Assembly: GCF_947179165.1 (NCBI RefSeq)
Contig: NC_077245.1
Coordinates: 14,912,740-14,976,739 of the forward strand
DNA length: 64,000 nt
Reading direction: 5' to 3'
Source of the DNA: Solanum dulcamara
Lineage: Eukaryota > Streptophyta > Magnoliopsida > Solanales > Solanaceae
A model generated the notes under the pieces. The model was not told the DNA's origin. It did not search any database and was given only the letters and a program-made list of their open reading frames with translations. Numbering within the stretch: the first letter of the stretch is position 1; every line of letters begins with the position of its first letter. The translations under genes and the position numbers were made by a program. Below, piece after piece: positions 10,743-42,773 of the stretch.

Positions 10743-13337
10743 CTATAGTAGCGAAGCCTCATCTTTCAAGCTGTTTAAATCCTCGACCACTTTGATTAAA
10801 AATTGAAATCGGTGGAAACATTTGATCACTATCACCTTCATCATTGTGATTAAGCCTATTTCTCCCACATGGAGCTTCATTCCCAAAGTAATAGGAATAA
10901 AAGTTGTTAGTTTCTCTCGCAATATAAGCTTGAACAATTGATCCTTTGATCTTTCCTCTCTGTTTAATTATTTGTTTGCACCTTCCAATTTTTCTGAATG
11001 TATATATCAATATATGTTAACTAATAATTATAGTATATATAAGAAAAATAATTTAATTACTTATATAAGAAAAGCATTACCTCTTAAATGGATACATCCA
11101 CCTTATTTGAACTGGATCTCCAAGGCGGGCTTCTTTTACAAGATGAATCAAAAGATGCTCCATCACATCAAAAAAATCACATGAAAAAATATTCTCTAGC
11201 TTTGTAGTAATAACAGAAATATTTTCCTCCATCCTGTCAAAACTACTTTCTAACAACTTTTCAGAACATAAATCTCTAAAGAAAAGATTTACCTCTATGA
11301 TTGGCTTCCATATCCTGTCAGGTAGATGGCTAAAAGCGATATGAATCAAAGTTTTCATGAATACATGACAATAATGGCTTTTCATACCTATCAATTTTCC
11401 TTCATTCAGATATGCCTGCTTACCCAAATTTGAAGTATATCCCTCTAGCATTCTCAAATTTTTAACCCACTCACATATGTCACATTTCTCATCCAATGTG
11501 AATGAATAACTGGCTTTAGGCTTGACAACTTTACCATTTTGTAGTTTTTGCAACCACAATTTTTTTCTCCTACAGTATTCCTTTAAGTCCATTCTAGCTC
11601 TTGCGTTGTCTTTTGTCTTTCCCTTAATCCATCACTGTGTTAAAAAAATTATCAAAATAATTTTTCTCAAAGTGCATCACATCAAGATTATGTCGTAGGA
11701 GATTATCCTTCCAATACGGTAACTCTCAGGATATGCTCTATTTGTTCCAATTATGTTCAACACCATATCCAGGATGTCTAAATGGTGGAGTTTCTGTAAC
11801 TTTAGGTAATTGAAAAACTCTCTCCCAAATTTGATGTCCTGTCAGTGATGGAGCTGGAGGGTCATTTTCAACCCTATTTTTTTTGAATGCATGTTTCATC
11901 TTTCTAAACTCATGGTTCATTGGCAAGAACTGACGATGACAATCAAACCATGAATTTTTTCTTCCATGTTTTAAGGTGAATGCTTTACTATTTTCCATGA
12001 AATGAGGACAAGCAAGCTTTCCAACAGTCATCCAACCAAACAACATCCCATATGCAGGAAAATCATTAATAGTCCATATTAAAGAAGCACGCATAACAAA
12101 ATTCTGTTTAGTTGATATATCATAAGTCACTACACCTTCAAACCACAATTGTTTTAGCTGTAGATAGACATCAATCAAACTTTTAGGATTACGAGCACCC
12201 GAAATAATACAACTTAGAATGATGTACGGACTTGTCATGCACATTTTAGGAGGACAATTATACGGGATAAGAAATACAGGCCAATAAGAATAAGGTGAGG
12301 CAGCATTAGAGAATGGTGTGAAGTCATCTGCACACAATCCCAATCTTACATTTTTTGGTTCACTATCAAAATCAGGATACATGTTATCAAAATATTTCCA
12401 TGCTTCTCCGTCAGATGTATGAGACAAGACACTCGGCGGCCTTCTATATTCACGATGCCATCTCATATGTGGGGCAGACCTCATCAATGCATATAACCTC
12501 TTTAATCTAGGAATAATAGGTAAATAATGCATCGCCTTAATTGAGACCATCTTTCCAATAGGAGTCCTCTTATAATAAGCTTGTCCACAAAACTTAAAAT
12601 TTTCTAATTCACTATCAGTCTTGTAGAACAACATGCAACTATTAACACAACAATGAATTCTATCATGCGACAATCCTAACTTGGAAACCAATCTCTTTGC
12701 CTGATAGAAGTTCTTAGGTATGTTAAACTCAGGATTAACTAGTTCGCCCAAATGATCAACCATTGAGTCCATAGCTGCATGAGGAACACTCCAATCTAAT
12801 TTAATATTCATTAACCTAACTACAACCGAGAAAGCAGAATGCGGACTCCCTTCACATAATGGACGACTAGCCTCTTCTAATTGTTGGTAGAAGCGTCTTC
12901 TTCTTTATTAGGAGTTTCATCAAAATATTATTTGGGTTCCATCCATCTTGAACCCCAAAAGCATCATTGACCATTTCATGAAACTCTATAATGTTGAACT
13001 CTATCATGTTCAACCCTAATTTGACCATTTAAGCATATTATATTCATCTACGGGCAGCAAAATATAAAATATACTATTCAATCCATCTATTTTTTCATGA
13101 TCAATCCATACAAAATATCTAGACTTAAATTTATTACCATACAAATGAATCAAAACTATATCTAGATTAAAAAATTTCAAAACCTACATTCACGACAAGC
13201 CTAACCAATCCATTTCTCTTAAAAATATCAGGTGTCATTGCATGATTGATAAAACTTCTTACACCATCAATAAATTCAGGTTTCAATCTACCACCAACTT
13301 CATAATGCATGTTATACATCCACAAACGATGATCCAT
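10743..13337 (-). pseudogene. CACTA TNP2-type transposase (decayed)
   Basis: Pieces in minus-strand order: 13337 to about 13180, a transposase-associated N-terminal domain beginning 'MDHRLWMYN' with 'FIDGVRSFINHAM'; 12811-11738 (357 codons), the Transposase_21/TNP2 core with 'LPIIPRLKRLYALMRSA', 'MRWHREYRR', 'LGLCADDFTPFSNAASPYSYWP' type blocks (the last is the diagnostic TNP2 motif) and 'MLFGWMTVGKLACPHF'; 11592-11077, a DUF4218-like segment with 'GMKSHYCHVFMKTLI'; 11010-10759, a DUF4216-like segment with 'YSYYFGNEAPCGRNR'. Between 11738 and 11593 the family sequence continues ('LRHNLDVMHFEKN') but with stops. The order is that of En/Spm TNPD proteins, which cut and join the element ends. 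Several stops and frame breaks make it inactive. Confidence 0.9.
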
Positions 13338-14906: not shown

Positions 14907-14989
14907 CGGCGAAGGAGGTGGTGGATTTGAGGAGAGAAGAGAGAGTTTAGAGAGTGACAAAAAAGAAAAAATATGATCTACCTCCCACA

Positions 14990-15085
14990 TATTTTAATAA
15001 AAGTGACGGACAGCGTCTCTAAGTCCGTCGTTTTTAAAAAAATATTTGACCGTCATTTTGACCAAAAAACGACGGACAAAGCGAT
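14990..15085. repeat. CACTA right subterminal repeats, proximal part
   Basis: 'gtgacggacagcgtct', 'aagtccgtcgttttt' and 'aacgacggacaaagcgat' motifs are cut at 15085 by the inserted LTR and resume at 27926. Confidence 0.75.
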
Positions 15086-16069
15086 TGTAATGACCCTCAA
15101 GATCATTTTTGGAATTTTTGTAAACTAACCATTTTACCCTTTCCTTTAGTTGCCCTGAATCGTTTTTGATTGGTACCGGGTGTTGATTTTTAGAAAATCT
15201 TATGAAAAGTTAAATTTTTAGAAATTTTGAGTTTTCATAAGCTTTAAGTACTAGAAAGTGGTATTTGGGGTCAACTGAAGCTATGAGTCTCGAAATGGAA
15301 TTCTGTTAATTCCAGCATCTCCGAAATGTCGAAATTGGCCTAGGAGAGTTTACAGAATGAGTTTTGGAGTTGTAATAAAGATTTGAGGCCTTGATTTAAG
15401 AATTTGAGGAACTTTAAGCCAAAGTTTGATTTTGGTCAACTTTTGGAGTTCCGATGCTCAGAATGGAATTCTGATGATTCCGTTGGATTCGGGAGATGGT
15501 TTTTGGTCTAGAAGAAGTGTTGGTTGAATTTTTAGAGGTCCCGAGTCTATTTTGATATTTTGAATGCCTAAGTTGGTTTAGTTGCGACTTTTCGAGTTTT
15601 GGGTCAACGAGATCTCGAATTCAAATTCTGATGGTTCCATCAGCTCCAGAATGACCAAATTAGGCTACTAGCATTATTGGAATGACTATCGAGGCAATCG
15701 ATACGAGTTTGGGCCATTTGGCGCTTGACTTTTAAACTTAGCCTATGATTGACTTTGGTCAACATTCTTGGAAAATGCGCTCGAATGAAAATTCTGACAG
15801 CACGATTAGTTCCAGAATATTTATTTTGGTCTAGCACAACCCTTCATTTGCTTTTCGAGGCTTCCAAACTAATATCGAGGCCGTTGTGAAGTGATGCTTA
15901 AAATGACTCTTGGGTGTGGGACCCACTTTTTATTAAAATGATCTCGTATGAAAATTTTGAATGTGTCATTGAGTCCGGAATATCAAATTTAATGGGGTAA
16001 CATATCTGGTTTATTTTTATCGAATTTCAAAAGAATTTCGAACACCCCGTCGAGGATTTTGATTGTTTT

Positions 16070-19000
16070 TTTCCAAAAATTGCAGCAGTGCTGCCAGCAG
16101 CCCTTTTATTTCTTTTTTTGAGAGTTTCTCCAACTTTAAAACCCCATAACTTGAGCATTAAAGCTCTAAATTGGGAGATTAAAAAGGCAAACTTGTGAGA
16201 TTTTTCATGAAAAACGCATTAGAGAGATTGAAAACTGATTTTGAGCATTCGATTCAGGTAAAAATCATGATTTTATTTACAGCAGTGTCCATTTTCGGAT
16301 TGAGTTTTTGAAGAACTTTGAGAAAATTATCTCTTGGTCTATATAAACACGATTTAGGTGATTCAAAGGTCTAAATTCAAAAGAATTTCGTGAGGAATCT
16401 CGTGAAAATCTCAGAAATGCGAGGGAAAGATTCGTTTGAGGTAAAAATGCATTTTAATTTACTGATTTATTATTTTTCGGAATCAATTTTTATTAAATTT
16501 TGGAAGAGTGTATCTTGGTCAATATAACTCCGTCTTGAGTGCTTCTTGAGGCTAGATTGTGGGTATTTCGCAAGGACGTCATGCTCCAAAAATTGCAGAA
16601 GTGCTGTCAATAGCTCTTTTATTTCTTTTCTTGAGGGAGTTTTTCCAACTTTAAAACCTCATAACTTGAGTATTAAGGCTCTAAATTGGGTGATTAAAAA
16701 GGCAACCTTGTGAGATTTTCCATGAAGAGCGCATTAGAGAGATTGAAAACTGATTTTGAGCATTCGATTCAGATAAAAATCATGATTTTATTTACAGCAG
16801 TGTCTATTTTTGGATTAAGTTTTTGAAGAACTTTGAGAAATTATTTTTCTTGGCCTATATAAACTCGATTTTGGTGATTCAAAGGTCTAAATTCAAAAGA
16901 ATTTCATGAGAAATCTCGTGAAAATCTCAGAAACGCAAGGGGAAGATTCGTTTGAGGTAAAAATGCATTTTTATTTACTGATTTAGTATTTTTCAGAATC
17001 AAATTTTGTTGAATTTTGAAAGACTGTATCTTGATCAATATAACTCCATTTTGAGTGATTTTTGAGGCTAGATTGTGGGGTATTTCGCAAGGAACGACAT
17101 GCTCTAAAAATTGCAGAACTGCTGCCAGCAGTTCTCTTATTTCTTTTCTTGGGAGAGTTTTTCCAAATTTAAAACCTCATAACTTGAGCATTAAGGCTCT
17201 AAATTGGGTGATTAAAAAGGCAAAATTGTGAGATTTTCCATTGAGAACGCATTAGAGAGATTGAAAACTGATTTTAAGCATTCGATTCAGGTAAAAATCA
17301 TGATTTTATTTATATCAGTGTCCATTTTCGGATTGAATTTTTAAAGAACTTTGAGAAATTATTTTTTTTGGCCTATATAAACCCGATTTTGGTGATTCAA
17401 GGGTCTAAATTCAAAAGAATTTCGTGAGCAATCTCGTGAAAATCTCAAAAACGCAAGGGGAAGATTCATTTGTGGTAAAAAATGCATTTTTATTTACTTA
17501 TTTAGTATTTTTTCGGAATCAAATTTTGTTAAATTTTGAAAGAGTGTATCTTGGTCAATATAACTCCGTTTTGAATGATTCTTGAGGCTAGATTGTGGGG
17601 TATTTCGCAAGGAACGTCATGCTCCAAAAATTGCAGAAGTGCTGCCAGTAGCTCTTTTATATCTTTTCTTGAGAGAGTTTTTACAACTTTAAAACTTCAT
17701 AACTTGAGTATTAAGCCTCTAAATTGGGTGATTAAAAAGGCAAACTTGTGAGATTTTTCCATTGAGAACGCATTAGAGAGATTGAAAACTGATTTTGAGC
17801 ATTCGATTCAGGTAAAATCATGATTTTATTTATACCAGTGTCCATTTTCAGATTGAAATGTTGAAGAACTTTGAGAAATTATTTCTTGGCCTATATAAAC
17901 CCGATTTTGGTGATTCAAGGGTCTAAATTCAAAAGAATTTCGTGAGGAATCTCGTGAAAATCTCAGAAACACGAGTGGAAGATTCGTTTGAGGTAAAAAT
18001 GCATTTTTATTTACTGATTTAGTATTTTTCAGAATCAAATTTTGTTGAATTTTGAAAGACTGTATCTTGATCAATATAACTCCATTTTGAGTGATTTTTG
18101 AGGCTAGATTGTGGGGTATTTCGCAAGGAACGTCATGCTCTAAAAATTGCAGAAGTGCTGCCAGCAACTCTCTTATTTCTTTTCTTGAGAGAGTTTTTCC
18201 AACTTTAAAACCTCATAACTTGAGCAGGCTCTAAATTGGATGATTAAAAGGGCAAACTTGTGAGATTTTCCATTGAGAATGTATTAGAGAGATTGAAAAC
18301 TGATTTTGAGCATTCGATTCAGGTAAAAATCATAATTTTATTTATACCAGTGTCCATTTTCGAATTGAATTTTTGAAGAACTTTGAGAAATTATTTCTTG
18401 GCCTATATAAACCCGATTTTGGTGATTCAAGGGTCTAAATTTAAAAGAATTTCGTGAGAAATCTCGTGAAAATCTCAGAAACACGAGTGGAAGATTCGTT
18501 TGAGGTAAAAATGCATTTTTATTTACTGATTTAGTATTTTTCAGAATTAAATTTTGTTGAATTTTGAAAGACTGTATCTTGATCAATATAACTCCATTTT
18601 GAGTGATTTTTGAGGCTAGATTGTGGGGTATTTCGCAAAGAACGACATGCTCTAAAAATTGCAGAACTGCTGCTAGCAGCTCTCTTATTTCTTTTCTTGG
18701 GGGAGTTTTTCCAAATTTAAAACCTCATAACTTGAGCATTAAGGCTCTAAATTGGGTGATTAAAAAGGCAAACTTATGAGATTTTCCATTGAGAACGCAT
18801 TAGAGAGATTGAAAAATGATTTTAAGCATTTGATTTAGGTAAAAATCATGATTTTATTTACAGCAGTGTCTATTTTCGGATTGAGTTTTTGAAAAACTTT
18901 GAGAAATTATTTTTTTTGGCCTATATAAACCCGATTTTGGTGATTCAAGGGTCTAAATTCAAAAGAATTTCGTGAGGAATCTCGTGAAAATCTCAAAAAC

Positions 19001-22000
19001 GCAAGGGGGAGATTCATTTGTGGTAAAAAATGCATTTTTATTTACTTATTTAGTATTTTTTCGGAATCAAATTTTGTTAAATTTTGAAAGAGTGTATGGT
19101 AATACCCCAGAATTGTTTTCACAAAGACTCGAACATTTCTTCACATGTGTGTAGACTCGAACCGAAGGACTTGTAATTTTATATATGAGTTAGGATAAAT
19201 TCTTAAGTATTTGAAGTGTGTTAGATGTGCTTAGGGGTCTTAAGGGATCTCTAACACCAAGCCGAGTCCAAAGAACTTCAATCGATTAAGTTTTCGGATG
19301 ATTTAGTATAAGGGCCAACTTCAAACGACCATATCTCTTTGAATATAACGAACTGGGTGGACCATGACCTATCAAATTATAGGTCTTTGAGTCTTCTTTC
19401 CAATGCCGCCAAGATTGTAGTTTTTTGAGTTCGGAATCAAAAGTTATGACCATTTTACTTTAGACTATCACTGCAGGGATTTTGCCAGTTTTTCAGATTT
19501 TAGATGAAGGGCAATTTGGGCATTTCCCAAATTATATATACATTAGCCTTGGGACATTTTGGACCATTATTTTCAATCTCTTCCTCTCTCTAAAAGTCCT
19601 AGAAAATCCACTCTCTTCTCCTTCAAATCCATCTCCAACAAGGATTGCCTTCAAGGACTTCAAGAATTCAAGCCTTCCATTGAAGACCTAACATCAAGGT
19701 TTCTTCAAAGTCTTCACCAAAGTATGTAAGGCTACTCAAAGCATGTGTTAATTCCACCCATGTGCCATACATCCTCCTTGAGATTGATTGTTCATAGAAA
19801 TTGAGTTTTCTTGATAGATTTATGTCCTAATGGGTTTATACATCTATTAACTTGATTTTGTTATGTTGATATTGATAAGTTGAGAAATTGATAAATTCTT
19901 CATGTTTGATATGAGTTGATTGATATGAGTTGTTATACATATTTTTTTATGTCTAAGAGTTGATTGATATGGGTTGTTATACATAGTTTGAATGTTCATA
20001 GGAATTGAGTTTTCTTGATAGATTTATGTCCTAATGAGTTTATACATCTATTAACTTGATTTTTTTATGTTGATATTGATAAGTTGAGAAATTGATAAAT
20101 GCTTCATGTTTGATATGAGTTGATTGATATAAGTTGTTATATATACTTTGTTATGTTTAAGAGTTGATTGATATGAGTTGTTAAACATATTTTTGTTATA
20201 AACTTAAATATTTGAGTATCCTAAATTGTCGAGTTAAAGTCTTGGTGAGTCATGATTTAGCCCCAAAAGATTGGCTAAATAAATGGAGAAATGATTGGAT
20301 AGAATTAAATGTTATCATAAATTGTCTTGAGTTTGAAATTGTTGGTTTTTATGTATAATAAAAACAATATTGCTTTCAAAGAAAAAAATGAGGTATTCTT
20401 CTTATATGAGTATAAATGATTGTTTGAGAAGGAATTTTAAATAAATAATTTGTGAACATTTTTGCATAAATTATTTATACACTATTTTGAGTTTAAAGAA
20501 TGATTATTTTCATCTTTAATTTAAAAAGAGTTTAAGCATGAGTTGAGTTTGAGAAGTCTTTTAATTTTCATTTTGAACATGAGTATTTTGAGTATAAATG
20601 AGTTGAATATTTTTACATAAAAATGCCTATTTTGAGATTGAGTTGAGGAATTGAAATTATGTTTTAAATGCATCTAATATTTTTTTTTGCATTCATTGAG
20701 TTGAGATGACATCAAATTCAAAAAGAAGAGTTTGATGATTGAGATGAGTTGATTGGGAATGAAGGTCCAATGAGACCAAATTGATTGAGTTGATCTGAAA
20801 GAGTCCAATGAGACTAAATGAGTTGATTTGAAAATAAGTCCTAAGAGACTAAATGAGTATTTTGAGTATTTTACTCACTTGATAGATATGAGCATATTGA
20901 GTCTTGGGAGGAGTATCGAGCACCGAATTGAGTAAGAGTATAGTCCATACTCAAACCAATAACTACGTCGCCAAACGTAGGAGAGGATTGGACCGTTACA
21001 GTCGGATGTTTCCTAAATTACTATCCTGACATGATATGACTTGATTGGTTATGGATCCATGATTGTTGATTCGTTCATACCCTGGCAAGGTATGAACGGA
21101 CGCGGCAACAACGTCGGCTTGTTGTACTATCACTCGCTCATATGGTGATAGTTGTCGATTAGAGAAACTCCCAATTGAATGGATTGTGCTTGATATGATT
21201 GGTTTGATTGTGATTGTAGATGATTGAGTTGAATTGTAAAGCATTACATAATTTAATTTGCATATTTATTTGAGTTGAGTCCTTTGAGTTGATTGTTGAG
21301 TTGATTATATATATGATTGGATCGAATTGGGTGATGTGCGATGGGTTGGATTAGACGATACGTGATAGGATTGGATTGAGTTGGATTAGACGATATGTGA
21401 TTGGATGGGATTAGATGATTTGTGATTGGATTGAATAGAATTGTAAATGATTTGATTGAACTGTGTTGTGTATGATTGGATTGTATGGTATATGATTGGC
21501 CTTTGTCTAAAATGTATTCTTACTTTAGACTTATGACACTTTGATTGAGTCTCTCTTATCTTTCTGGTTTTGAGATATTTGAACCAACGTTATTCTTCCT
21601 TGAGGTATGTTTCATTCTGTCATATTACATACTCGTACATTCCATGTACTGACGTCCATTTGGACCTGCATTGTTTTATGATGCAGAGACAGGTTTAAGA
21701 GATCGCCAATAGAAGCACCATTGAGGATCTATACACACTCAGCGTATTGGTGAGTCCTTCCCTATATTCGGAGGACACTGCTTATGTTATTCTTGCATCG
21801 AGTTAGCCCTTTCCATTTTGATTTGAGGTAGCCATGAACTTGTCATTGACACCAATTAGATAGTAGTGATAGAGGCTTCATAGACTAGATAGTGATGGGT
21901 CGATTGAATATTTTATTTCCTTGAATTATTCTTGTCAAACTATTTTAATGACAAAGATTGAAGTTTGATTTGTTGGCCCATGACCTTTCTTTCTTGAGTT

Positions 22001-25000
22001 AGATTGTTGATTTGGGATTGTCCACCAAGTATTCTCTTTATTTTAAGTCTTCCGCTGTTTGAATGAATGAACGGATGTGTGATCAGGCTATGTGGTTCGC
22101 TTGGGAGCCAAATATGGTTTCTGAGTGCCGGCCACGTCTAGGGTACCCTCCCGGGGCGTGACATGTATCTTGGTCAATATAACTCCGTCTTGAGTGATTC
22201 TTGAGGTTAGATTGTGGGTATTTCGCAAGGAACGTCATGCTCCAAAAATTGCAGAAGTGCTGCCAGCAGTTCTTTTATTTCTTTTCTTGAGAGAGTTTTT
22301 CCAACTTTAAAACCTCATAACTTGAGCATTAAGGCTCTAAATTGGGTGATTAAAAAGGCAACCTTGTGAGATTTTCCATGAAGAACACATTAGAGAGATT
22401 GAAAACTGATTTTGAGCATTCGATTCAGGTAAAAATCATGATTTTATTTACAGCAGTGTCCATTTTCGGATTGAGTTTTTGAAAAACTTTGAGAAACCCG
22501 ATTTTGGTGATTCAAAGGTCTAAATTCAAAAGAATTTCATGAGAAATCTCGTGAAAATCTCAGAAACGCGAGGGGAAGATTCGTTTGAGGAAAAAATGCA
22601 TTTTTATTTACTTATTTAGTATTATTCGGATTCAAATTTTGTTGAATTTTGAAAGAGTGTATCTTGGTCAATATAACTCCGTTTTGAGTGATTTTTGAGG
22701 CTAGATTATGGGGTATTTCGCAAGGAACGTCATGCTCCAAAAGTTGCAGAAGTACTGCCAGCAACTCTTTTATATCTTTTCTTGTGGGAGTTTTTCCAAC
22801 TTTAAAACTTCATAACTTGAGCATTAAGGCTCTAAATTGGGTGATTAAAAGGGCAAACTTGTGAGATTTTCCATTGAGAATGCATTAGAGAGATTGAAAA
22901 CTGATTTTGAGCATTCGATTCAGGTAAAAATCATAATTTTATTTATACCAGTGTCCATTTTCGAATTGAATTTTTGAAGAACTTTGAGAAATTATTTCTT
23001 GGCCTATATAAACCCGATTTTGGTGATTCAAGGGTCTAAATTCAAAAGAATTTCGTGAGGAATCTCGTGAAAATCTCAGAAACACGAGTGGAAGATTCGT
23101 TTGAGGTAAAAATGCATTTTTATTTATTGATTTAGTATTTTTCAAAATTAAATTTTGTTGAATTTTGAAAGACTGTATCTTGATCAATATAACTCCATTT
23201 TGAGTGATTTTTGAGGCTAGATTGTGAGGTATTTCGCAAAGAACGACATGCTCTAAAAATTGCAGAACTGCTGCCAGCAGCTCTCTTATTTCTTTTCTTG
23301 GGGGAGTTTTTCCAAATTTAAAACCTCATAACTTGAGCATTAAGGCTCTAAATTGGGTGATTAAAAAGGCAAACTTGTGAGATTTTCCATTGAGAACGCA
23401 TTAGAGAGATTGAAAACTGATTTTGAGCATTCGATTCAGGTAAAAATCATGATTTTATTTACAGCAGTGTCCATTTTCGGATTGAGTTTTTGAAAAACTT
23501 TGAGAAAATTAATTTTCTTGGCCTATATAAACCCGATTTTGGTGATTCAAGGGTCTAAATGCAAAAGAATTTCGTGAGGAATCTCGTGAAAATCTCAGAA
23601 ACGTGAGGGAAAGATTCGTTTGAGGTAAAAATGTAGTTTTATTTACTGATTTAGTATTTTTCGGAATCAAATTTTGTTGAATTTTGGAAGAGTATCTTGG
23701 TCAATATAACTCTGTTTTGAGTGATTTTTGAGGTTAGATTGTGGGTATTTCGCAAGAAACGTCATGCTCCAAAAATTACACAAGTGGCGCCAGCAGCTCT
23801 TTTATTTCTTTTCTTGGGAGAGTTTTTCCAACTTTAAAATCTCATAACTTGAGCATTAATGCTCTAAATTGGGTGATTAAAAAGGCAAACTTGTGAGATT
23901 TTCCATGAAGAAGGCATTAGAGAGATTGAAAACTGATTTTGAACATTCAATTCAGGTAAAAATCATGATTTTATTTACAGCAGTGTCTATTTTCGAATTG
24001 AGTTTTTGAAAAACTTTGAGAAATTATTTTTTTTGGCCTATATAAACCCGATTTTGGTGATTCAAGGGTCTAAATTCAAAAGAATTTCGTGAGGAATCTC
24101 GTGAAAATCTCAGAAACGCGATGGTGAAGATTTGTTTGAGGTAAAAAAGGCATTTTTATTTACTGATTTAGTATTTTTCGGAATCAAATTTTGTTGAATT
24201 TTGAAAGAGTGTATCTTGATCAATATAACTCCGTTTTTATTGATTCTTGAGGTTAGATTGTGAGGTAATTCGTAAAGAACGTCATGCTCCAAAAGTTGCA
24301 GAAGTGATGCCAACAACTCTTTTATTTCTTTTTTGGGGGGAATTTTCCAACTTTAAAACTTCATAACTTGAGCATTTAGGATCCAAATTGGGTGATTAAA
24401 AAGGCAAACTTGTGAGATTTTCCATGAAGAACGCATTAGAGAGATTGAAAACTGATTTTGAGCATTCGATTCAGGTAAAAATCATGATTCGATTCAGGTA
24501 AAAATCATGATTTTATTTACAGTAGTGTCCATTTTCGGATTGAGTTTTTGAAAAACTTTGAGAAAATTAATTTTTTTGGTCTATATAAACCCGATTTTGG
24601 TGATTCAAGGGTTTAAATTCAAAAGAATTTTGTGAGCAATCTCGTGAAAATCTTAGAAATGCGAGGGGAAGATTCGTTTGAGGTAAATATGCATTTTTAT
24701 TTACTGATTTAGTATTTTTCGGAATCAAATTTTGTTGAATTTTGGAAGAGTGTATCTTGATCAATATAACTCCGTTTTAAGTGATTCTTGTGGCTAGATT
24801 ATGGGGTATTTCACAAGGAACGTCATGCTCCAAAAATTGCAGAAGTGCTGCCAGCAACTTTTTTATTTCTTTTTTTGGGGGAGTTTTTTTCCAACTTTAA
24901 ACCTCATAACTTGAGCATTAAAGCTCTTAATTGGGTGATTAAAAAGGCTAACTTGTGAGATTTTCCATTGAGAACGCATTAGAGAGATTGAAAACTGATT

Positions 25001-25890
25001 TTGAACATTTGATTCAGGTAAAAATCATGATTTTATTTACAACAGTTTCCATTTTTGGATTGAGTTTTGAAGAACTTTGAGAAATTATTTCTTGGCCTAT
25101 ATAAACCCGATTTTGGTGATTCAAGGGTCTAAATTCAAAAGAATTTCGTGAGGAATCTGTGAAAATCTCAGAAACGCGAAGGAAAGATTCGTTTGAGGTA
25201 AAAAAGCATTTTTATTAACTGATTTAGTATTTTTCGAAATCAAATTTTGTTGAATTTTGGAAGAGTTATCTTGGTCAATATAACTCTATTTTGAGTGATT
25301 CTTGAGGCTAAATTCTTGGTCAGTATTTTTCGAAATCAAATTTTGTTGAATTTTGCAAGGAACGTCATGCTCTTAAAATTGCACAAGTGCTGCTAGCAGC
25401 TCTTTTATTTCTTTTCTTCGGGGTGTTTTTCCAACTTTAAAATCTCTTAACTTGAGCATTAATGCTCTAAATTGAGTGATTAAAAAGGTAAACTTATGAG
25501 ATTTTCCATGAAGAAGGCATTAGAGAGATTGAAAACTAATTTTGAACATTCGATTTAGGTAAAAATCATGATTTTATTTACAGCAGTGTCTATTTTCGAA
25601 TTGAGTTTTTGAAAAACTTTGAGAAATTATTATTTTTGGCCTATATAATCCCGATTTTGGTGATTCAAGGGTCTAAATTCAAAAGAATTTCGTGAGGAAT
25701 CTCGTGAAAATCTCAGAAACACGGTGGTGAAGATTTGTTTGAGGTAAAAAGGCATTTTTATTTACTGATTTAGTATTTTTCGGAATCAAATTTTGTTGAA
25801 TTTTGAAAGAGTGTATCTTGGTCAATATAACTCTGTTTTGAATGATTCTTGAGGGTAGATTATGGTTTTTTTACAAGGAATGTCATGGTA
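16070..25890 (+). repeat. 13-unit, about 519-bp higher-order tandem array within LTR D1
   Basis: The anchor 'agagagattg' occurs at 16221, 16736, 17254, 17775, 18286, 18802, 22392, 22887, 23403, 23919, 24438, 24981 and 25522. Spacings are 495-543 bp once the nested LTR is removed. Each unit contains three related segments of about 173 bp. They align through parallel phrases: 'cataacttgagcatt', 'tatataaacccgatttt' and 'aatataactccgttttg', then 'ctaaattgggtgatt', 'gtctaaattcaaaag' and 'gctagattgtggggt'. Unit 7 lacks about 20-25 bp. Units 11 and 12 are longer because of small local duplications. Confidence 0.92.
19097..22163 (+). mobile_element. Solo LTR 'C', 3067 bp, inserted in the array
   Basis: It starts 'tggtaataccccag' and ends 'cccggggcgtgaca'. 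The array unit reads 'gaaagagtgtatcttggtca'; here it is broken after 'gtgta' and resumes 'tgtatcttgg'. That gives a target duplication tgta (19093-19096, 22164-22167), or tgtat if one terminal T was lost. The 5' part matches the LTR at 42774-45408 and the 3' part matches LTR A at 4783-6927. There are no coding domains. It interrupts unit 6/7, so it is younger than the array. Confidence 0.9.
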
Positions 25891-26837
25891 TAATTTGTTT
25901 TGATTGAGAGATTTTTGTTTTTGAGAAATCGATGCATAAAGAGGCTGTCTTGTTTGTTTTTTTAGTTGAAAATATGGAAATTGATTATTTGATCGTCTTG
26001 CGTTATTTTTCTACCCTAAATTGTGTTATAAATTTTATTTATGAGCTTGGGTGACCTTTGAACCTATTTTGGGGGTCAAATCTAAAATTCCGTATGTGGA
26101 TCCCATATTATCCATTTTTGACTATAAAATTGATCCGTCTTCAAAAATTATGAAATTAGAGTCTAAACAACCGTATTAACGTCGTGATTTAGTTTTTTGA
26201 TAGCGTGGAAATATTCTGAGGTAGTTCAAAATGGAAAAGCTTCGACACATTGATTTGGAGTCCGCGTGTTTAGCCTATAGGTAGGCTATGGTTTTATCTT
26301 TCTTTAGATTGAGCTGGAATATGTGAAAGTATGTTGAAATAGTTGGAATTTGGGTTGGGTAGTTTGATTGTATATCTTAGGTGTTAGAAATCATGCTTTA
26401 GGCTTATTATTGAGTTTTCGGATATTTAGAAGCATGTGTATGTTGTCATTATTTGTTAGTATTATAAAGAGAGTTGAATGAGCATGTTTTTGATACTGTG
26501 GGGTATGTTGGCCTTAGTATCGGATGTAAACTTGCTTTAAATGTCCTGGCGTCGCTCCGGTAGACTTAGATCCTTGTAGAATGGTGTAGAGGGCTAGTGC
26601 CTGGTAGTTTGACCTTAGTTAGGCATTACCCTTGCTCTTAATAATATCCTCATCCATAAATCAATATAATCGTGACTTTCATGATGCGTCGGTCACACTA
26701 GATTTCGTGATCGTTGACTTTGGCTCTGGTTCCAGTTTTGGCGGCATATCGGTTGACTCATTTGAAAAAAGATTTTTGGTACTATTGTATTCTAGTTGGG
26801 AAGTAAAATATTTGGCATCATGGGATAAATTATCTGT

Positions 26838-27110
26838 GAGCATCCGGGTACCAAGTCCCGGCCTCCATTCTAAATTATCGGGGAGTATACGGGTACTCAG
26901 CCCTGGCCTTTACCGGATTGCTAGTATGACGAGCATCCGGGTACCCAGTCTCAGCCTCAATCATACCGATGTATTACGGCGAGCATCCGGGTATCCAGTC
27001 CCGGCCTCGACCGCACTTATATATTATGGCAGGCATCCGGGTACCCAGTCCCGGCCTTGGCTACTTGAACATTCGGGCGAGCATCTAGGTCCCAATTTCG
27101 GCCTCGACCC
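26838..27110 (+). repeat. 'gagcatccgggtacccagtc' minisatellite, six units, in LTR D1
   Basis: Six units of about 45-60 bp each contain 'gcatccgggtacccag', 'cccggcct' and a variable tail. They begin near 26839, 26880, 26936, 26980, 27031 and 27077. The same minisatellite is present in reverse at 37780-38070 in the sister LTR. Confidence 0.8.
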
Positions 27111-27925
27111 CTAAGTCACCCCTAGATCGATTGACTCTTGGAGATTCTGGGTTTGGAAATCATATATAATACTTTGGCTCCTAACATCGCAGATTCTTGG
27201 TTTCTAGCCTTGGTAGTTATAGCTATTTTATGTACTCAGCGGGTTTATGAGGGTTCGTTCGGGTTTTTTTTTAACTTGCGCACGAGTATCTCTGCTGGGC
27301 TTATGGGGGGCCAGTTGGGTATAGTTAGTTGTAGTTCTAATAGGTAGTACTCTTTCCCTTTTTGATGCTTATGTTGACTCCTATTTAGGCTATTCATTTT
27401 TTTCATATTGTTTTTACCTTTTCTGCTTAGTCGGCCTATGATGCCTACTGGGTACTTGTTGTCTTGGTACTCATACTACTCTGCATCTACTTTCGTGATA
27501 CAGAACTGAGCACCAGCTATCGCCGTGGATAGATCAAGCATGTTGCAGTCAGCTTCGAAGACTAGGGTAAGTACTTGGCATTTTTGGATCATTCCTGTCT
27601 CTTTCAGTATGAATGACCCATCTTTTGTCTTTTGAGACTAGTCAGTTGTTATATATATTTTCGATCCACTTTCGGGACTTGTACTCGTCTTTTGTTTTAA
27701 AGCAGCTCTGTACTTGTGACTTCTAGGTTTTGGGAGGGATCTTTAGTTGTTTATATCATATTTTGGTTTACTTCCGCTTATTCTTTCTACTTATCTTTAT
27801 AATTCATCACTCTTATTTAGTTTCTGCCCTCAAACCCATTACTTGAAGTTCCGGGTTGACGGTTGACTTACCTATTAGTGGTTTGTAGTAGGTGCCATCA
27901 TGACCTAAGGAATTGGATCGTGACA

Positions 27926-28277
27926 GTGACCTAGTCCGTCGCTATTTTAAATTTGTTGACCAATAGCGAGGAGACCATGTCCGTCGCTATGTTAAAAAAA
28001 ATAAATACTTACGATAGATGGCATCGTGATATTTAATTTATAAATAATTATTTTTTTATCAAAATATATAAAATATTTCTATAAAAATAATATTTATTTT
28101 TAGCACAAAAAATTACCAAAATAAGCGACGGACTAGGCGTCCCTATCTGTCGCTTTTAATAAAGAAATATAAAAATAAATAAAAATGACGGACAATGTCA
28201 TTTTATCCTTCACAGTTTATTTGCGATGTTGTCCATCACTTTTTGTTCTGTCGCTTTTTGGACTTTTTTTAGTAGTA
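27926..28277. repeat. CACTA right subterminal repeats and terminal inverted repeat
   Basis: It continues the motif series from 15085: 'ctagtccgtcgctatttt', 'catgtccgtcgctatg', 'aagcgacggactaggcgtcc', 'gtcgctttttggac'. It ends with 'agtagta' against copia sequence. Confidence 0.8.
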
Positions 28278-28280
28278 CAT

Positions 28281-28670
28281 CCATTTGATGAAGTTTCCAT
28301 CCTTCTGATGTTGCTATTGCAATCACTGATCTCACAGTGATCATTTTGGCTACTGGAGAGAATGTCTCATGATAGTTAAGACCTTTCTTTTGACTAACTC
28401 TTTTGCCACTAACCTTGTCTTAAATCTTTCAACATCCCCATTTGCCTTATACTTGATCTTATATACCCATTTAGATCCTACTGCATTTTTCCCATTTTGA
28501 AGATCAACAATCTTCCAAATATGATTATCTTTTAGAGCTTTGATCTTCTGTTGCATAGCTTCTATCCACTTTATATCCTTTGAAGCTTCCTTAAAGTTTT
28601 TAGGTTTAGTCAAGATAGAGAACTTAGCCAAATAATTTTTATACTTATTTGATGTTCCTGCATATAACAC
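28281..28670 (-). pseudogene. Copia reverse transcriptase N-terminal part (decayed)
   Basis: The minus-strand frame holds the copia RT entry segment: 'FKEASKDIKWIEAMQQKIKA', then a 'NHIWKIVDL' block and 'AVGSKWVYKIKYKANGDVER'. It then frameshifts close to the junction with the CACTA insertion at 28277. It is the upstream continuation of the RT/RNase H relic at 8276-9482. Confidence 0.87.
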
Positions 28671-28952
28671 ATACTTGTTTATAAGATAGATGCTACTTTC
28701 ATCATGACTAGCATTGATAATATAGTCATTTAACCATCCAGGTTGCTTGGTTATCCTAGTTGGTTTGTTGCCAGTGACAACAGGAGGAGCAACACCAAGC
28801 TACAATGGAACTTGTGCAGCTTCATCAGGTTCTGTATCATATTCTGGTGGATTAGAAACAATCTCAGGTGGTTCCAACACCTACACCACTTCTAGTTCTA
28901 CTGCATCTGTAACCTCATTGTTATGATGTGTATCAGCTCCATTGTCAAGTGA

Positions 28953-30224
28953 CTATGGACCCATTGCTAATACTGGTAGAGACTGGTAAAGATAAGCAGG
29001 AGCAGGAAATTCATATAAAGCAGGATCTGGACACATTTGAAGGAATGTGTTACTACCTGAGTCTGTAATATTTCTAAAAGGAAACTCAGCTTCTCTGAAT
29101 ACCACATCTCTGCTAACATAAAACTTATTAGTGGATAGTTCAACTACAATATATCCTTTTTGGGTCTCTAAAAAGCTCACGAATACAGCTGCTTTGGCTC
29201 TAGAAGCAAACTTATCTGATCTAGGTAATGTAGTGGCAAAACATAGACATCCAAGTATCCTTAGATGAACAAGAGAAGCCTTTTTGCGATACAAAAATTC
29301 ATAAGGAGTGTAATCCTTCAAGGCACTTGATTGCAGCATATTCATCAAATATACTGCAACTTTAACACAAAAACCCCAATACTTAGTTGGAAAATTAGCT
29401 TGAAACTTAATTGCTCTAGACATCTCCAAAATCTGCCTATACTTTCTTTCAACCACCCCATTTTGTTGAGGTGTATAAGGACAACTACTTTGATGAATTA
29501 TCCCTAAGCTATGTAACAAATCACAACTTTGAGAGTTAAAAAATTCAGTACCATTGTTAGACCTAATAGTCTTGACTTTGCAATCAAACTGAGTATTCAT
29601 AAAGGCAAGAAATTATTTCAAAACAACAATTACTTCAGTCTTTAGTTGCAACAGATAGATCCAAATATATCTGGTATGATCATCAACAATAGTGAGAAAA
29701 TAGTTCTTCTTATCAAAAGTAAGAGTTTTGTAAGAACTCCACAAATCTAAGTGAACTAGCTCAAAATGTTGATCAGCTCTAGAAAAGCTTAAAGGAAGCT
29801 ACAATCTGGTCTACTTTGCTAAGGGACAAATCTTATAATTATTATGCACATTATTTTCAATCTTATCTTTGAACTCTACCATAGTCTTTATAGTGGATTT
29901 AGAAGGATGACCTAGCCTTCTATGCCATAAGCTGCATCTTTCATCAGCGTTTGCAAGGTAAACTTGCTTTAGACTTCCTTTTTGTTCATCAGAGTCTTTA
30001 GCTGATCCTTGAAATATGTATAGTCCTCCTTGCAATCTACCAATCCCCTTCACCCTGCCACTGTATAGATACTGAAAGATATAGTGATCAAGGAGAAAGT
30101 TGACTGACAACAAATTATATTTAAAGTTAGGCACAAATAACACATTTGAAATCTTCTCCAGCCCAAATAATTTTGCACATCCTGTAAGTGTAACTAAAAC
30201 TGTACTTTTATTTGGCAAGTGCAT
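28953..30224 (-). pseudogene. Copia GAG-pre-integrase and integrase core (decayed)
   Basis: The frame 30224-29811 carries the pre-integrase motif 'CSLWHRRLGHPSKSTIKTM'. The frame 29600-28953 carries the integrase core with 'IRSNNGTEFFN' (catalytic Asp replaced by Asn in the usual SDNG motif) and 'YTPQQNGVVERKYRQILEM', which includes the catalytic Glu. A stretch around 29601-29810 joins them but has lost its frame. This enzyme would insert the element into host DNA. It is inactivated by the frame breaks and the altered Asp. Confidence 0.88.
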
Positions 30225-30416
30225 CCTTACTCCTTAATTAGCTTCTAGACTATGCATACTTTTTAGTAGTTTTTCATTTGCAGTAACATGGTGAGAAACA
30301 CCAAAATCAACTACCCATTCACATTTTTCTAACTGAGACATCAAACAAGTTATAATAACTGTCATATGAACTTGATATTCTTTAGAGTCTTTGCCATAAC
30401 CACTGTTATGCTTGTA

Positions 30417-32130: not shown

Positions 32131-34698
32131 CTTTATTTCTTTCAATTTTTTTGTCATATTTTCTTTTTAGTCGGTTTAATGAAGAATGTATCTTACCCAT
32201 TTTAGCAACTTTATTCTAACTTTTCACATAACATATTTTAGACTACAAACTAAAGAGTATTTTGGTATATTTGACATATCTTTAGTTTAAGTGTCACGAC
32301 CCAAGCCTAGGGCCTAGACGTGACATGGCGAATGAGGAACCCGAAAGTACCTCAAACAAGCCTCTTAGCATTCTTTTAGCCTTTCATAGGTAATGATGAT
32401 AAATAAACAAGCGGAAATCATAATAAATCTTCAACTTACATATGTCCAACAATACCTCTAACTATTAGATTTAACGGGACTAAGACAAGTCCCTAACTCA
32501 CCCTCAATCATAATAGAAGAAATTCCGTAGTAAAATATCTTAACATATCATAAATTAGAAAGATAAAGGAGTATTGTTCCCGGAACATGGGAACTCACCA
32601 AAAGTAGTCTTCAATGGAATATCAACTAGCCACGTGGAGGAGAATGAGGAGGAGCACTGATCCCTACATGGTGATATCATGTAGGCAAAAGAGTATGCGT
32701 TAGTACTTTGAATGTACTAAGTATGTAAGGATGCATGAACATTGAGAAAACATTAAAACATTTATGTAATATGGAACATAATTTAATGTATGCATAATAA
32801 ATCATATATATATCCTTTAAAACATTCATTTTGTGGAAAATTAACCATAACCGACATTTAAGACCATGCGAGCTATTACATGGAATCCAACATAACCCCC
32901 TACGTTGGCCGGGGAGACTACTTGCCAGGTAGAACTCCGTCAACTTCATTCATTTCTTAAACTTTAACTTTAAGGGCCATTTATGGATCCATTAGCCTAA
33001 GCCTACAAGGGCTCCTATGTTGGCACATAGTTAATGAGACAAGGGGTTGCTACTAGGATTCTCTTACCGAATCCCACCTCAATGACCCATTCGGTGCTAA
33101 GTCAATCCCACGGAATAGTTTAATACTTCAAAATAGTCATAACATATAGCTTGAGAATTCAAAATATCATATTCGGTAGAATAGCTCATTAAAACATTTG
33201 GTATTTCAAATATGCAAGAATTTTCCTTATTGCATAAAGAATCCATCTTTCATATCATTTCATCATTCTTTTATTTCATAAGACTCCCTTTTGATCATAA
33301 ATATTACTTTCATAAATATTTATTTGGAGTCAAAGCTTTCAAGTCAAACTTTATTAAAAACATAGTAAAACTAGGTGGGTTCAAATCACTTCAACTTGCA
33401 AATATGTATGTAAATAAATATACATAAATACTTTGAAATCCATTAATTAAAAATCATGCTTTAAACAACCCACCATGAATTTCAAGAACCTTTAAATAGA
33501 TAAATAAAAGAATTACTTGTAAACCATTAATTCATACATATGAAATTATGTTGCATCAAAATAGAGCGATAATCATTAGTTTAACCATGATTCATATTAT
33601 TAAGTAAAATTAAGAATTACCATAAGAAAATATTACTTGAAATCAAGAGACTTAATTGAAAGAGTTTTTGGACTACATGGGTGGAAGAACCCATGGATAA
33701 ATACCCACATAACTTAGAGTAGACCTTAGAGAAAATAAATATAATTTATCATATAATCAAAATAATTTAGACATGAGAGTGGAAGGAATACTCTCATTGA
33801 AGCCTTACATACCTGGAAACTGAAGCTTTAGTTGGTACCGGAAGACTTAATGACCACTTTTGAGTCCTAGCTTCTCTCCTTGCCGGAACGTTTTGTGTAC
33901 TACCCGGAATATATGAATTACCGGAATAGTATTTTTTCACTACTAAGAACTAAAACTATATTTGAGAATGTGTAAAGAAGTGTATAGAGAGAAGATTTGC
34001 TTGAGAAAGCTTGATGAATAAAATGAGGAAATAAGGTGGGTATTTATAGGTGGGAAAGAGGACCTAACAATAAATAAAATAATTATAAATAAAAATCTGA
34101 AAATTTAGTGGAATATATTGATGTCATGGATGATGTTAAATGGAGGACAATTTATGTCATGAGTGATGTCAAATGTATCTAGATCTTTCTATGGTAGGTG
34201 AAATGAGTTATCTTTGACAGAATACTCTTTTTGGGAGCTACGTTTGAATAAGATAAATTCCTTATTAGGATTTGGTGTCTTCATAAGAATTGTAGATATG
34301 GAAGTATAGTTTCATATCGTTCAAGAATCAACCAATTTGGATAAACCTACAGTGAGATATGATTTTTCTTCTATAAATACTCATTTCCGTCACAGCATCC
34401 TACCTTACAAAGATTAATTTATTTGACCTACTTAAACTCTGAATCTTAAAATATGGTCTTCATAAAAGTTGTAGGTAATGATCTTGTGGTTACTCAAAAA
34501 TTTGAATCACTCAATTTGGATATTCCTATGAAAAGTTATGACCAAAATACAGAGGCTGTATCATGTTTAGGCAAAAATTGAAACATCGTATACAACGTTT
34601 TTAGGGGATGTTACATTAAGATCACAAGATTTAAAACTTTTTTTACTTTTTAAAACTTCGTATCAAGTCAAACTAAGAAAAACATATTAAAACAAAGA
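32131..34698. mobile_element. MITE split by solo LTR B
   Basis: The left part (32131-32291) and right part (34616-34698) together give an element of about 240 bp. Its ends, 'ctttcaatttttttgtcata' and (reverse complement) 'ctttgttttaatatgttttt', resemble those of the intact copy at 50671-50925. The middle phrases 'acatattttagactacaaac...aagatcacaagatt' are also shared with that copy. Confidence 0.65.
32292..34615 (-). mobile_element. Solo LTR 'B', 2324 bp, TSD ttaag
   Basis: On the minus strand it runs from 'tgtaacatcccctaaaa' to 'ctaggcttgggtcgtgaca'. A perfect duplication ttaag lies at 32287-32291 and 34616-34620. It is close to, but more diverged than, the two LTRs of the gypsy element at 55198-64000, so it is an older member of that family reduced to a solo LTR. 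A TATA box is at about 34041-34050 (reverse) and a GTATGT motif at 33808-33814 (reverse). Confidence 0.93.
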
Positions 34699-36965: not shown

Positions 36966-39900
36966 TGTCACGACCCAATTTCGTAGGTCATGATGGCACC
37001 TACTATAACCCTCTAGTAGGTAAGCCAACCCGTCAACCCGGAACTTCAAGTAATGTGTTTGAAGGCAAAAACTATATAAGAGCATTGAATTATAAAAGTA
37101 AACAGAATGAATAAGCGGAAGTAAACCAAAACATGTTTTAAACAACTAAAGATCCCTCCCAGAACCTGGAAGTCACAAGTACAGAGCTGCTACAAAATAA
37201 AATACGAGTACAAGTCCCGAAAGTGGACCAAAAAGATATAAAACAACTGGCTAGTCTCAAAAGGCAAAAGACGGGCCATCTATGCTGAAGGAGACAAGAA
37301 TGATCTAAAAACGCCAAGTACTCACCCTAGTCTCCGAAGTTGACTGCAACAGGCTCGATTTATCCACGGCGATAGCTGGTGCTCGGTCCTGCATCACGAA
37401 AGTAGATGCAGAGTGTAGTATGAGTACCAAGACAACAGGTACCCAGTAGGCATCATAGGCCGACTGAGCAGAAAAGGTAAAAACAATATGAAAAAGAAGA
37501 ATAGCCTAAATAGGAGTCAACATAAGCATCAAAAGGAAAAAAAAGTACTACCTATGAAAACTACAGCTAACTATACCCAACTGGGCCCCCATAAGCCCAA
37601 TCGGGACACTCGTGCGTAAGTTAAATAAAAACTCGGACGAACCCCCATAAGCCCGCCGAGTACACAGAATAGCTACAACTACCAAGGCTAGGAACCAAGA
37701 ATCTGCGATGTTAGGAGCCGAAGTATTATATCATTTCCAAACCCAGAATCTCTAAGAGTCAATCGATCTAGTGGTGACTTAGGGGTCGAGGCTGGGACTG
37801 GGACCCAGAGGCTCACCCGAATGTTCAAAGTGGTCAAGGCCAGGACTGGGTAGCCGGATGCTTGCCATAATACATAAGTACGGTCGAGGCCAGGACTGGG
37901 TACCCGGATGCTCACCGTAACACATCGATATGATCGAGGCCAGGACTGGATACCAAGATGCTCGTCATACTAGCAAGTCGGCGAAGGCCGGGGCTGGGTA
38001 CCCGGATGCTCCCCGATAATTCAGAATGGAGGCCGGGACTGGGTACCCGGATGCTCACAGATATTTTATCCTATGGTGCCGAATATTCTCCTTTCCAACT
38101 AAACAATAATAGTACCGAGAATCTCCATCCCGATGAGTCAACCCATATGCTGCCAAAACTGAAACCGGAGACCAAGTCAATGATCACGAAATCTAGTGTT
38201 GCCGACGCATCACGAAATTCATAATTATACCGAGTTATCGATGATGGTATTTTTAAGATCAAGAGTAACGCCTAGCTAAGGCCAAACTACTAGGCACTAG
38301 CCCGCTACACCATTCTACAAGGATCTAAGTCTACCGGAGCGACGCCGGGACATCTAAAGCAAGTTTACATCCTATACTAAGGCCAACATACCCCACAGTA
38401 TCAAAAACATGCTCATTCAACTCTACTTATAAAACTTAACAAATAACGACAAGATACACATGCTTCTAAATATCCGAAAACCCGATAATAAGCCTAAAGC
38501 ATGATTTCTAACACCTAAGATATACAATCAAACTACCCAACCCAAATTCCAACTATTTCAACATGCTTTCACACATTTCGGCTCAATCTAAAGAAAGGTA
38601 AACCGTAGCCTACCTGTAGGCCAAACACGCGGACTCCAAATCACTGTGCTAGAGCTTTTCCATTTTAAACTACCTCGGAACGCTGCCAAACTATCAAAAA
38701 TAGAACCACAACATCGATACGGTCGTTTAGACACTAATTTCATAACTTTTGGAGATGGACCAATTTTTGGGTTGAAAATGGGAATTGTGGGGCCCACATA
38801 CGAAATTCTGGATTTGACCCCCAAAACAGGTTCTAAACGTCACCCCAAGCTCAAAAATCAGATTTATAATACAATTCGGGGTGGGAAATTACGTAAAACG
38901 ATCAAACAATCAAAACTCATAAATTCGGACTAAAGGACCAAAAATGGCAGCATCGAAATTAGTAGATTTTGGAAATACGACACTCTTTCAACCCAAAAAA
39001 ATTGCACTATGATGATCCTTGCGAAAAACCCCACAATCTAGCCTCAAGAATCACTCAAAACGGAGTTATATTGACCAAGATACACTTTTTTCAAAATTCC
39101 ACAAAATTTCATTCCGAAAATGACTAAATCAGTAACTAAAAACGCATTTTTACCTCAAACGAAGCTTCTCCTAGCGTTTCTGAGATTACCACGAGATTCC
39201 TCACGAAATTCTATTGAATTTAGACCCTTGAATCACCAAAATCGGATTTATATTGGTCAAGATATAACTTGTCAAAGTTCTTCAAAAATCCATTCCGAAA
39301 ATGGATACTGCTGCAAATAAAATCACGATTAATACCTGAATCAAATGCTCCAAATCAATTTTCAATCTCTCCAATGCGTTCTCCATGAAAAACCTCACAA
39401 TTTTGCCTTTTGAATCACCCAATTTGGAGCTCTAGAACTCAAGAAATGAGGGTTCAAAGTTGGGGAGAAAAATCTGAAAATTTTTCTGCACTGTTGCTGC
39501 AGATTTTCTGGTTTTGCCACAATTTAAAGTCTCCGAACGAACCTTCGGAATTCGTTCGGAATCAGATAAAAATAAACCAAATATTCTACCCCACTAAATT
39601 CGACATTCCGGACTCAATGGCGCATTCAGAATTTCCATACGAGATCATTTTAATAAAAAGTGGGCCCCACACCCAAAAGTCATTTTCCACAACGGGTCTC
39701 GATATTAGCTCGGGAGCCTCGGGAAGTGAACGAAAGGTCGTCCCTGACCAAAATTGACATTACGGAACTAACCGTGCTGTCAGAATTTTTATTCGAGCGT
39801 GTTTTCCAAGAATGTTGACCAAAGTCAACTATAGGCTAAGTTTCAAAGTCAAAAGCGCCAAATGGCCCAAAACTCGTATCAATTGCCTCGATAGTCATTC

Positions 39901-40495
39901 CAACAGTGTTACTAGACTAATTTGGTCATTACGGAGCTGATGGAATCATCAAAATCTGAATCCAAGATCTCGTTGACCCAAAACTCGAAAAGTCGCAACT
40001 AAACTAACTTAGGCCTTTAAAATACCAAATTGGACTCGGGACCTCTAAAAATTCAACCAACACTTCTTCTAGACCAAAAACTATCTTCCGAATCCAACAG
40101 AGTCGTCGGAATTCCATTCCGAGCATCGGAACTCCAAAAGTTGACCAAAGTCAAACCTTGGCTTAAAGTTCCTTAAATTCTCAACTCAAGACTTCAAATC
40201 TTCGTTACAGCTCCAAAACTGATTCCGTAAAGTCTCCTAAGCCTATTTCGACAATTCGGAGCTGCTGGAATCGACGGAATTCCATTCTGAGATCCGTAGC
40301 TCCAATTGACCCCAAATACCACTTTTTAACACTTAAAGCTTATGAAACTCAAAATTTCTAAAGACTTAACTTTTCATAGGATTTTCTAAAAATCAACATC
40401 CGGTAACAATTAGAAATGACTCGAGGCATCTAAAGGGATGGGTAAAATGGTCATTTTACAAAAATTCCAAAAAAATGACCTTGAGGGTCATTACA
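36966..40495 (-). mobile_element. Solo LTR 'D2', 3530 bp, TSD ctaag
   Basis: On the minus strand it begins 'tgtaatgaccctcaaggtca' and ends 'aaattgggtcgtgaca'. A perfect duplication ctaag lies at 36961-36965 and 40496-40500. It matches LTR D1 (15086-27925) along its length but carries the amplified segment only once (about 38985-39500, reverse). It is therefore the reference state for the expansion. It contains the 'gcatccgggtacccagtc' minisatellite in reverse at 37780-38070. No coding domain is present. Confidence 0.93.
37780..38070 (-). repeat. Minisatellite in LTR D2
   Basis: About six units of a 'gaggccgggactgggtaccc'/'ggatgctc' repeat, 45-57 bp each. It is the counterpart of 26838-27110. 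Confidence 0.8.
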
Positions 40496-42221: not shown

Positions 42222-42773
42222 ATAGTGAATTGTAGTGATTGGACTGTGAGTATGAAACTTCTGAATTGTGCATTCTGAACACTTAGATTGAGTTGATTTC
42301 TATGCAGGTTGTAGTTATGGTGGTACGGTTGGGATGAAAAGGGTTTTTGTATTCTATCTAGATTTACCTTGTTTTATTGGGTTACCTGTTGAGTACCGTG
42401 TTGTTGGTACTCACTCCTTACTTCTACACTTATGTAGGTTCCAAGCCCGGATCCGCGTGTTAGTTTTCTTTATCTTTTTTTTAGGCTTATTTAGGAGACG
42501 TTGAGAGGTAGCTGTTTGTCATCTCAGCGGACCCTCTTATTTCTTTACTTATGTTTTGTTCTATTTGAGAAACAAATACATTAGGACTTGTATTTACCTT
42601 TCAAATCTGTATTTATACTAGGGGCTTATACACGCGACAACCAAATTTTGAAGCTATTTTGAAAATGGATAAGTTTTTCTCGCTAATGTTGTTATTATTG
42701 TTTCATTTCCGCATATCTTCCATTTTTGTTGAGTTTTGCCTGACTTGTCTTGATGGAAAAATACGAGTGCTAT

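Follow-up and report, generated by a model that had tools for sequence, protein, structure and literature searches.

Satellite repeats that derive from segments of long terminal repeats (LTRs) are already well known, also in the relatives of potato. In wild potato, the satellite Sobo is related to the LTR of Sore1 (Tek 2005, as cited in PMC9659126, PMC3648361 and PMC12628747), and the section of PMC3648361 that covers it gives a 4.7-kb monomer in an array of about 360 kb. St3-58, St3-238, St3-294 and St18 are LTR-derived centromere satellites of potato (Gong 2012, as cited in PMC9659126); such potato satellites are summarised in PMC3648361 as long arrays whose monomers range from 979 bp to 5.4 kb. 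The same summary has CRM1TR of maize come from an LTR-UTR segment and describes recombinant monomers and conversion for it. For the Ogre-derived satellites of Lathyrus sativus, the relevant part of PMC7004042 reports that a pre-existing short tandem tract in the retrotransposon expands at some copies. Hop SaazCEN sits in the LTR of SaazCRM1 (PMC12371157), TR-like structures of jujube formed from LTR segments (PMC12596083), and tandem LTR-retrotransposons repeat whole elements that share LTRs (PMC11899658). The origins of satellites are usually inferred from large arrays that are already homogenised.

Here we describe a tandem array of 13 units inside a solo LTR, D1, in a 64,000-nucleotide stretch of Solanum dulcamara DNA (the window). 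The array still lies between its own LTR flanks, single-copy relatives exist in the same genome and the unit boundaries are readable, so that its growth steps can partly be ordered and the formation of satellite DNA can be followed directly at an early, local step. Our account, to which we give a probability of roughly 0.8, is a single insertion followed by duplication within this copy and unequal exchange up to 13 units. It is backed by the single-copy state of the sampled relatives, a unit junction found only at D1, the common ancestry of the units, their similarity at a distance of three units (lag 3) and their mosaic composition.

The expanded solo LTR and its insertion site

D1 (15086..27925, + strand; 12,840 bp) aligns to an LTR family of the Ty3/gypsy type and ends in TGTAATGACC...GTGACA, the same TG...CA termini as those of its sister LTR in the window (36966..40495, - strand; 3,530 bp), which has a perfect target-site duplication (TSD), CTTAG. 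The 5-bp target duplication of D1 is imperfect: the left copy reads GCGAT (15081..15085) and the right copy GTGAC (27926..27930), with two C/T differences. When the joined flanks were used as a genome query, 45 matches were obtained, two of them D1's own flanks, and 10 were fetched as paralogous empty sites. In all 10 the sequence is uninterrupted at the D1 point and the five bases are present once, with C in eight and T in two at the second base, and C in five and T in five at the fifth. As the empty copies are single there and C/T-variable at both differing bases, the flanks represent one insertion site whose five-base duplication has since changed. They belong to a high-copy host element, and no LTR-element interior lies alongside; together with the termini and the target duplication this bears out the first-pass annotation, which had taken D1 for a solo LTR.

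The host element carries GTCCGTCGCTATTTT-type sub-repeats, is present in high copy and was seen at 14985-15085 and 27926-28030; a Transposase_21 (tnp2) piece lies near D1 at 11738-12904 (-). Both may belong to CACTA-type elements.

A probable full-length member of the family is formed by two LTRs that pair in the flank tree (L046 and L016; 1.000) and lie 8.7 kb apart in one orientation, enclosing L047. The L047 interior matches the Pfam families RVP_2 (protease) and RNase H; neither the RT-like nor the integrase-like pieces matched Pfam, and a Chromo match is weak (23.8 bits, below the 25.1 cut-off). L046 is followed by TGGTATCAGAGCC, which we take to be the tRNA primer site (PBS). The family is of the Ty3/gypsy type and probably a chromovirus. 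On contigs C2, C3, C4 and C5, nine pairs of matches to the junction query described below lie 7.2-8.7 kb apart in the same orientation, a spacing that fits the two LTRs of full-length members.

Several other repeats share the window. Another Ty3/gypsy element (55198-57517, 57719-62284 and 62496-64000) has gag and pol in long open frames, and its LTR parts are 99.6% identical over 1,505 bp, as in a young insertion; an LTR at 32292-34618 is related to it (96%). Among the 120 listed of 7,966 matches to the pol of an element in the window other than D1's, many are Solanum proteins, which points to a solanaceous host. Broken Ty1/copia-type pieces occupy 28350-30233 (-), with RVT_2, SH3_retrovirus, gag_pre-integrs and Pol_BBD. 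A third D-type LTR piece, from the 5' part and about 67% similar, lies at 35658-36085, and 44044-44314 holds a tandem repeat of its own with a 93-bp unit (2.9 copies, 99% matches).

Structure of the array

The anchor AGAGAGATTG occurs 13 times, always on the + strand, between 16221 and 25531 and nowhere else in the window; in 100 shuffled controls the mean was 0.19 and the largest count 2. The spacings are 495-543 bp, save one step of 3,590 bp across a nested insertion. Cutting 150 bp upstream of each anchor gives units of 495-543 bp which, with that insertion as the one exception, adjoin directly head-to-tail, all on the + strand. U1 (16071..16585), the first to split from the other units in the tree, is followed by U2 (16586..17103), U3 (17104..17624), U4 (17625..18135), U5 (18136..18651) and the first part of U6 (18652..19097). 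The second part of U6 (22169..22241) leads on to U7 (22242..22736), the shortest unit at 495 bp, then to U8 (22737..23252), U9 (23253..23768) and U10 (23769..24287). U11 (24288..24830) has a perfect 23-bp internal duplication and U12 (24831..25371) an internal duplication close to its end; the length of U13 (25372..25890), 519 bp, was set by the script. By eye, a gap of about 24 columns in U7 removes a TATATAA-like CTATATAA motif present in the other 12 units.

U6 is broken by a solo-LTR-like insertion (19098..22163, +; 3,066 bp) with the TSD TGTAT on both sides (19093-19097 and 22164-22168). Since only this unit is interrupted, the nested LTR entered later than the nearby units were formed. 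Relatives of the insertion are found in the window as fragments at 1973-2630 and 42765-43158.

The single-copy parts of D1 extend over 15086..16070 (+), which has degenerate ~166-bp repeats of its own, and 25891..27925 (+; compared with the sister from 25894). U1 to U12 sum to 6,230 bp (mean 519), and if these and the nested insertion with its duplication are taken from D1, 12,840 - 3,071 - 6,230 = 3,539 bp are left, against 3,530 bp for the sister. The first-pass annotation had given the same anchor count and spacings and a remainder of about 3541 bp, and its statement that the sister carries the segment once also holds: in a self-comparison of the window the segment is single there, and the LTR flanks of D1 continue on both sides of the array. 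A tandem LTR retrotransposon, in which whole elements share LTRs, was rejected as a description of D1, as only an inner segment of ~516 bp is repeated.

Tandem arrays are difficult to assemble, and the array might thus be an artefact of assembly. Judged from the letters of the assembly, we hold this to be highly improbable because divergence between the units runs from 2.9 to 11.7%, no exact repeat within the array is longer than 159 bp and 96% of its 101-mers are unique; the nested insertion and private indels serve as further landmarks within the array.

Single-copy relatives and the unit junction

The searched genome comprises 942 Mb in 32 contigs, with the window on contig C9 and D1 at C9:14927825-14940664. 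A query made of unit 1 and the start of unit 2 gave 51 matches from the 40 places scored among 2,253 candidates, 13 of them at D1 and 38 elsewhere. These relatives were chosen by best match to unit 1, not randomly. In every one of the 38 other scored family LTRs, all of which were fetched, the segment is single, and in 36 both LTR flanks adjoin it (L038 is without the left flank, and in L042 the left flank is displaced); weak second matches within L013 and L043 are an internal sub-repeat. One of the 40 LTRs with counted units (D1, the sister and the 38 fetched) is expanded.

A 121-bp query across the unit junction was scored at 40 of 1,258 candidate places. The junction is crossed at 11 of them, all within D1, and the other 29 matches end at query position 63-64, roughly the site of the junction. 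Its sensitivity is incomplete, as U10/U11, one of the 12 known array junctions, was missed. Among these 40 places no array of the unit was found outside D1, and neither was the independent satellite that the first-pass annotation had named as evidence against its own reading. A scan of viral contigs for a conserved 22-mer of the unit gave no match, as expected of plant sequence.

Common ancestry and timing

The divergence of the sister LTR from D1 is 23-27% in the windows beside the array and 6-17% elsewhere, and alignment of the two is difficult at and around both unit borders. Whole units are 16.7-19.9% from the sister, a distance that is inflated because the first ~60 bp of the units hardly align; in the well-aligned core the mean is 14.3%, against 13.6-14.2% for the flanks. 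In the flank tree the sister falls into a subclade other than that of D1, which groups with L012 (0.76) and L009 (0.85) within a clade of six copies (1.00). L009, on contig C23, is the closest single-copy relative of the units, and relatives of this kind align across the unit borders. Divergence of 23-27% makes the sister a poor proxy for the ancestor at the array borders. The suggestion that the window holds the states before and after expansion side by side has to be amended: the sister is a cousin, and better 'before' states are L009 and its clade elsewhere in the genome.

In a tree of the 13 units and 39 single segments (the 38 fetched relatives and the sister; 527 columns), the units group in a single clade (UFBoot 100), whose stem measures 0.021 and whose crown has a mean depth of 0.074. 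The nearest sequence of every unit is another unit, also in either half of the alignment. These results bear on the idea that an independent satellite invaded the LTR, or that a circular multimer was reinserted into it. PMC3648361 presents rolling-circle products of extrachromosomal circles as a proposed route to the amplification of satellites, but at D1 the units nest inside the tree of LTR segments, are collinear with the LTR flanks on both sides and, in the alignable core, are as diverged from the sister as those flanks are; nor does the array appear elsewhere among the 40 junction-query places scored of 1,258. We regard such an invasion as very improbable, and the array most likely arose within the D1 copy.

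For the timing, derived states were counted with ten relatives as reference (480 columns used, 37 ambiguous ones dropped). Six changes are common to all units, as against a mean of about 39.7 derived sites per unit, which implies that growth began early in D1's branch, after roughly 15-22% of it, and then continued. The terminal branch of D1 in the flank tree is 0.078. One could suppose that the array grew before insertion, in the LTR of a parent element, for instance through strand transfer in the course of reverse transcription, and that D1 is the sole surviving copy. Abnormal strand transfer in element replication has been put forward as the source of 3' UTR tandem repeats in plant LTR retrotransposons (Macas 2009, cited in PMC7004042), and the short stem, which places the start of growth early in D1's own branch, speaks for it. 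Against it, no other place crosses the junction (40 scored of 1,258) and all 38 sampled relatives are single-copy; the unit distances of 2.9-11.7% indicate growth spread over much of the branch and not one event; and the internal branches of the star-like flank tree are short, which leaves little time before insertion. Growth in a parent element thus seems unlikely to us, and growth after the insertion of D1 is the likely course. From these data we infer that the units multiplied at the D1 locus rather than in a parent copy that has vanished, by exchange and with the timing given here. The earlier claim that one LTR was expanded in place is upheld by the single-copy relatives and by a junction confined to D1 in the scored places, with growth after insertion likely rather than proved.

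Growth pattern and mutation

Units three apart are the closest pairs (6.4%, where permutations average 8.2%; p 0.0001), as with U5 and U8 (2.9%), U3 and U6 (3.7%) and U10 and U13 (7.0%), an older pair. The strongest local similarity links units 3.45-3.9 and most of 5.1-6.3 with the places three units on. The lag-3 pattern is not clean: units 4 and 7 differ by 6.5%, and parts of them are nearer to other units. Informative sites at most 100 bp apart are more compatible with each other than in all 1000 shuffles, so the units are mosaics. Divergence is higher toward the array ends (Spearman 0.62, p 0.024) and highest in U13. Lag-3 similarity, mosaics and diverged ends are the expected marks of unequal exchange together with conversion, and on them we infer that exchange took place.

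Where a unit departs from the majority of the units, the change is mostly G>A or C>T (166 of 263 differences). In the D1 flanks compared with the sister, such states number 69:36 and 127:64, an excess of about twofold, such as an older silent copy would be expected to show. When the sister serves as reference, deamination-type states make up 38 of 52 in two to six units, 1 of 9 in 7-12 units and 28 of 69 among private ones. C>T/G>A states in two to six units cluster at lag 3 (36 vs 19.9, p 0.0024), as do the other derived changes in two to six units (14 vs 4.4, p 0.0016); for non-C>T/G>A changes, a test of the single most shared pair was borderline (p 0.053). Among C>T/G>A states present in some but not all units, however, 36 of 49 are also found in at least three of the 39 single-copy rows; many of them may therefore be recurrent or inherited and not copied. 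This weakens shared deaminations alone as proof of growth after silencing, and their clustering at lag 3 supports growth in silent DNA only moderately.

An older repeat tier within the segment

Old and degenerate repeats, offset by about 155-180 bp, may make up much of the first 1.5 kb of the LTR, and the ~515-bp segment would cover the last 2.6 of them. In the sister the single segment contains a degenerate tandem repeat of ~180 bp with about 2.6 copies (39016..39481, -). Aligned to itself, the sister segment matches at offset 179 with 63% identity (E 3e-23, 98.3 bits), against at most 28.3 bits in 20 shuffled LTRs. Further 5' in the LTR, self-alignments occur at offsets of 154-172 and 325. 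A repeat at offset 178-184 lies within the segment of all 38 single-copy relatives, from which it follows that the array started from an already worn tandem tract.

A first duplication by homology between the ~181-bp sub-repeats is disfavoured, as the ~516-bp period does not amount to a whole number of 181-bp repeats and the junction falls outside the tract that matches. By eye the first junction has no clear microhomology, and an illegitimate first junction is preferred over a homologous one. We speculate, with slightly less than even confidence, that the 5' part of the LTR might be a standing nursery of tandem repeats: the ~515-bp segment would have become tandem in one silent solo LTR and blocks of three units would then have started to duplicate, so that nested tiers of ~181 bp, 516 bp and 1.55 kb would stand at one locus, all after insertion.

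In the preferred account, D1 would have integrated once into a high-copy element with sub-repeats, duplicating 5 bp of the target. The ~515-bp stretch with the degenerate ~181-bp repeats would have been duplicated head to tail, at an early point in the separate history of D1, through a junction without clear homology. Out-of-register homologous exchange, partly in steps of three units (~1.55 kb), and conversion between units may then have brought the number to 13, while the units decayed, chiefly through changes of C to T, and a further LTR element entered unit 6. No function would be required of the array, which could be a by-product of recombination in silent repeat DNA.

Comparison with known systems

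The array consists of head-to-tail monomers that bear signs of concerted evolution and are homologous to part of the LTR in an element family, as in the LTR-derived tandem repeats of the Sobo, St3 and CRM1TR type. With 13 units at one locus, and no crossing of the junction elsewhere among the 40 places scored, it has neither the high copy number nor the long arrays of a satellite; it is satellite-like and not an established satellite. Among the publications consulted we recognised none on the D1 locus or on exactly such a situation, which does not prove that there is none. D1 makes it possible to test whether arrays grow in silent solo LTRs, whether a pre-existing repeat tract is needed and what the step size is.

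Sobo and the D1 array are both solanaceous tandem repeats similar to the LTRs of gypsy elements; unlike Sobo, D1 repeats a ~516-bp piece in 13 units inside one LTR that keeps its ends and target duplication. St3 and St18 are likewise LTR-derived, but they form long centromeric arrays, whereas that of D1 is short and confined to a single locus. CRM1TR and CRM4TR occupy pericentromeric loci and stem from an LTR-UTR segment according to the part of PMC3648361 that treats them, in contrast to an array within one LTR. The tract that expands in Ogre is placed by the corresponding part of PMC7004042 in the 3' UTR, and that of D1 lies in the LTR. SaazCEN and the jujube repeats share the seat in or the origin from an LTR but are centromeric and multi-copy, against the single expanded LTR of D1. 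Tandem LTR-retrotransposons, in the corresponding description, resemble D1 in having a tandem structure at the locus of an LTR element, but what D1 repeats is about 15% of the LTR length. Set beside these systems, D1 is an unusually clean early intermediate, remarkable for how complete a record one small locus has kept.
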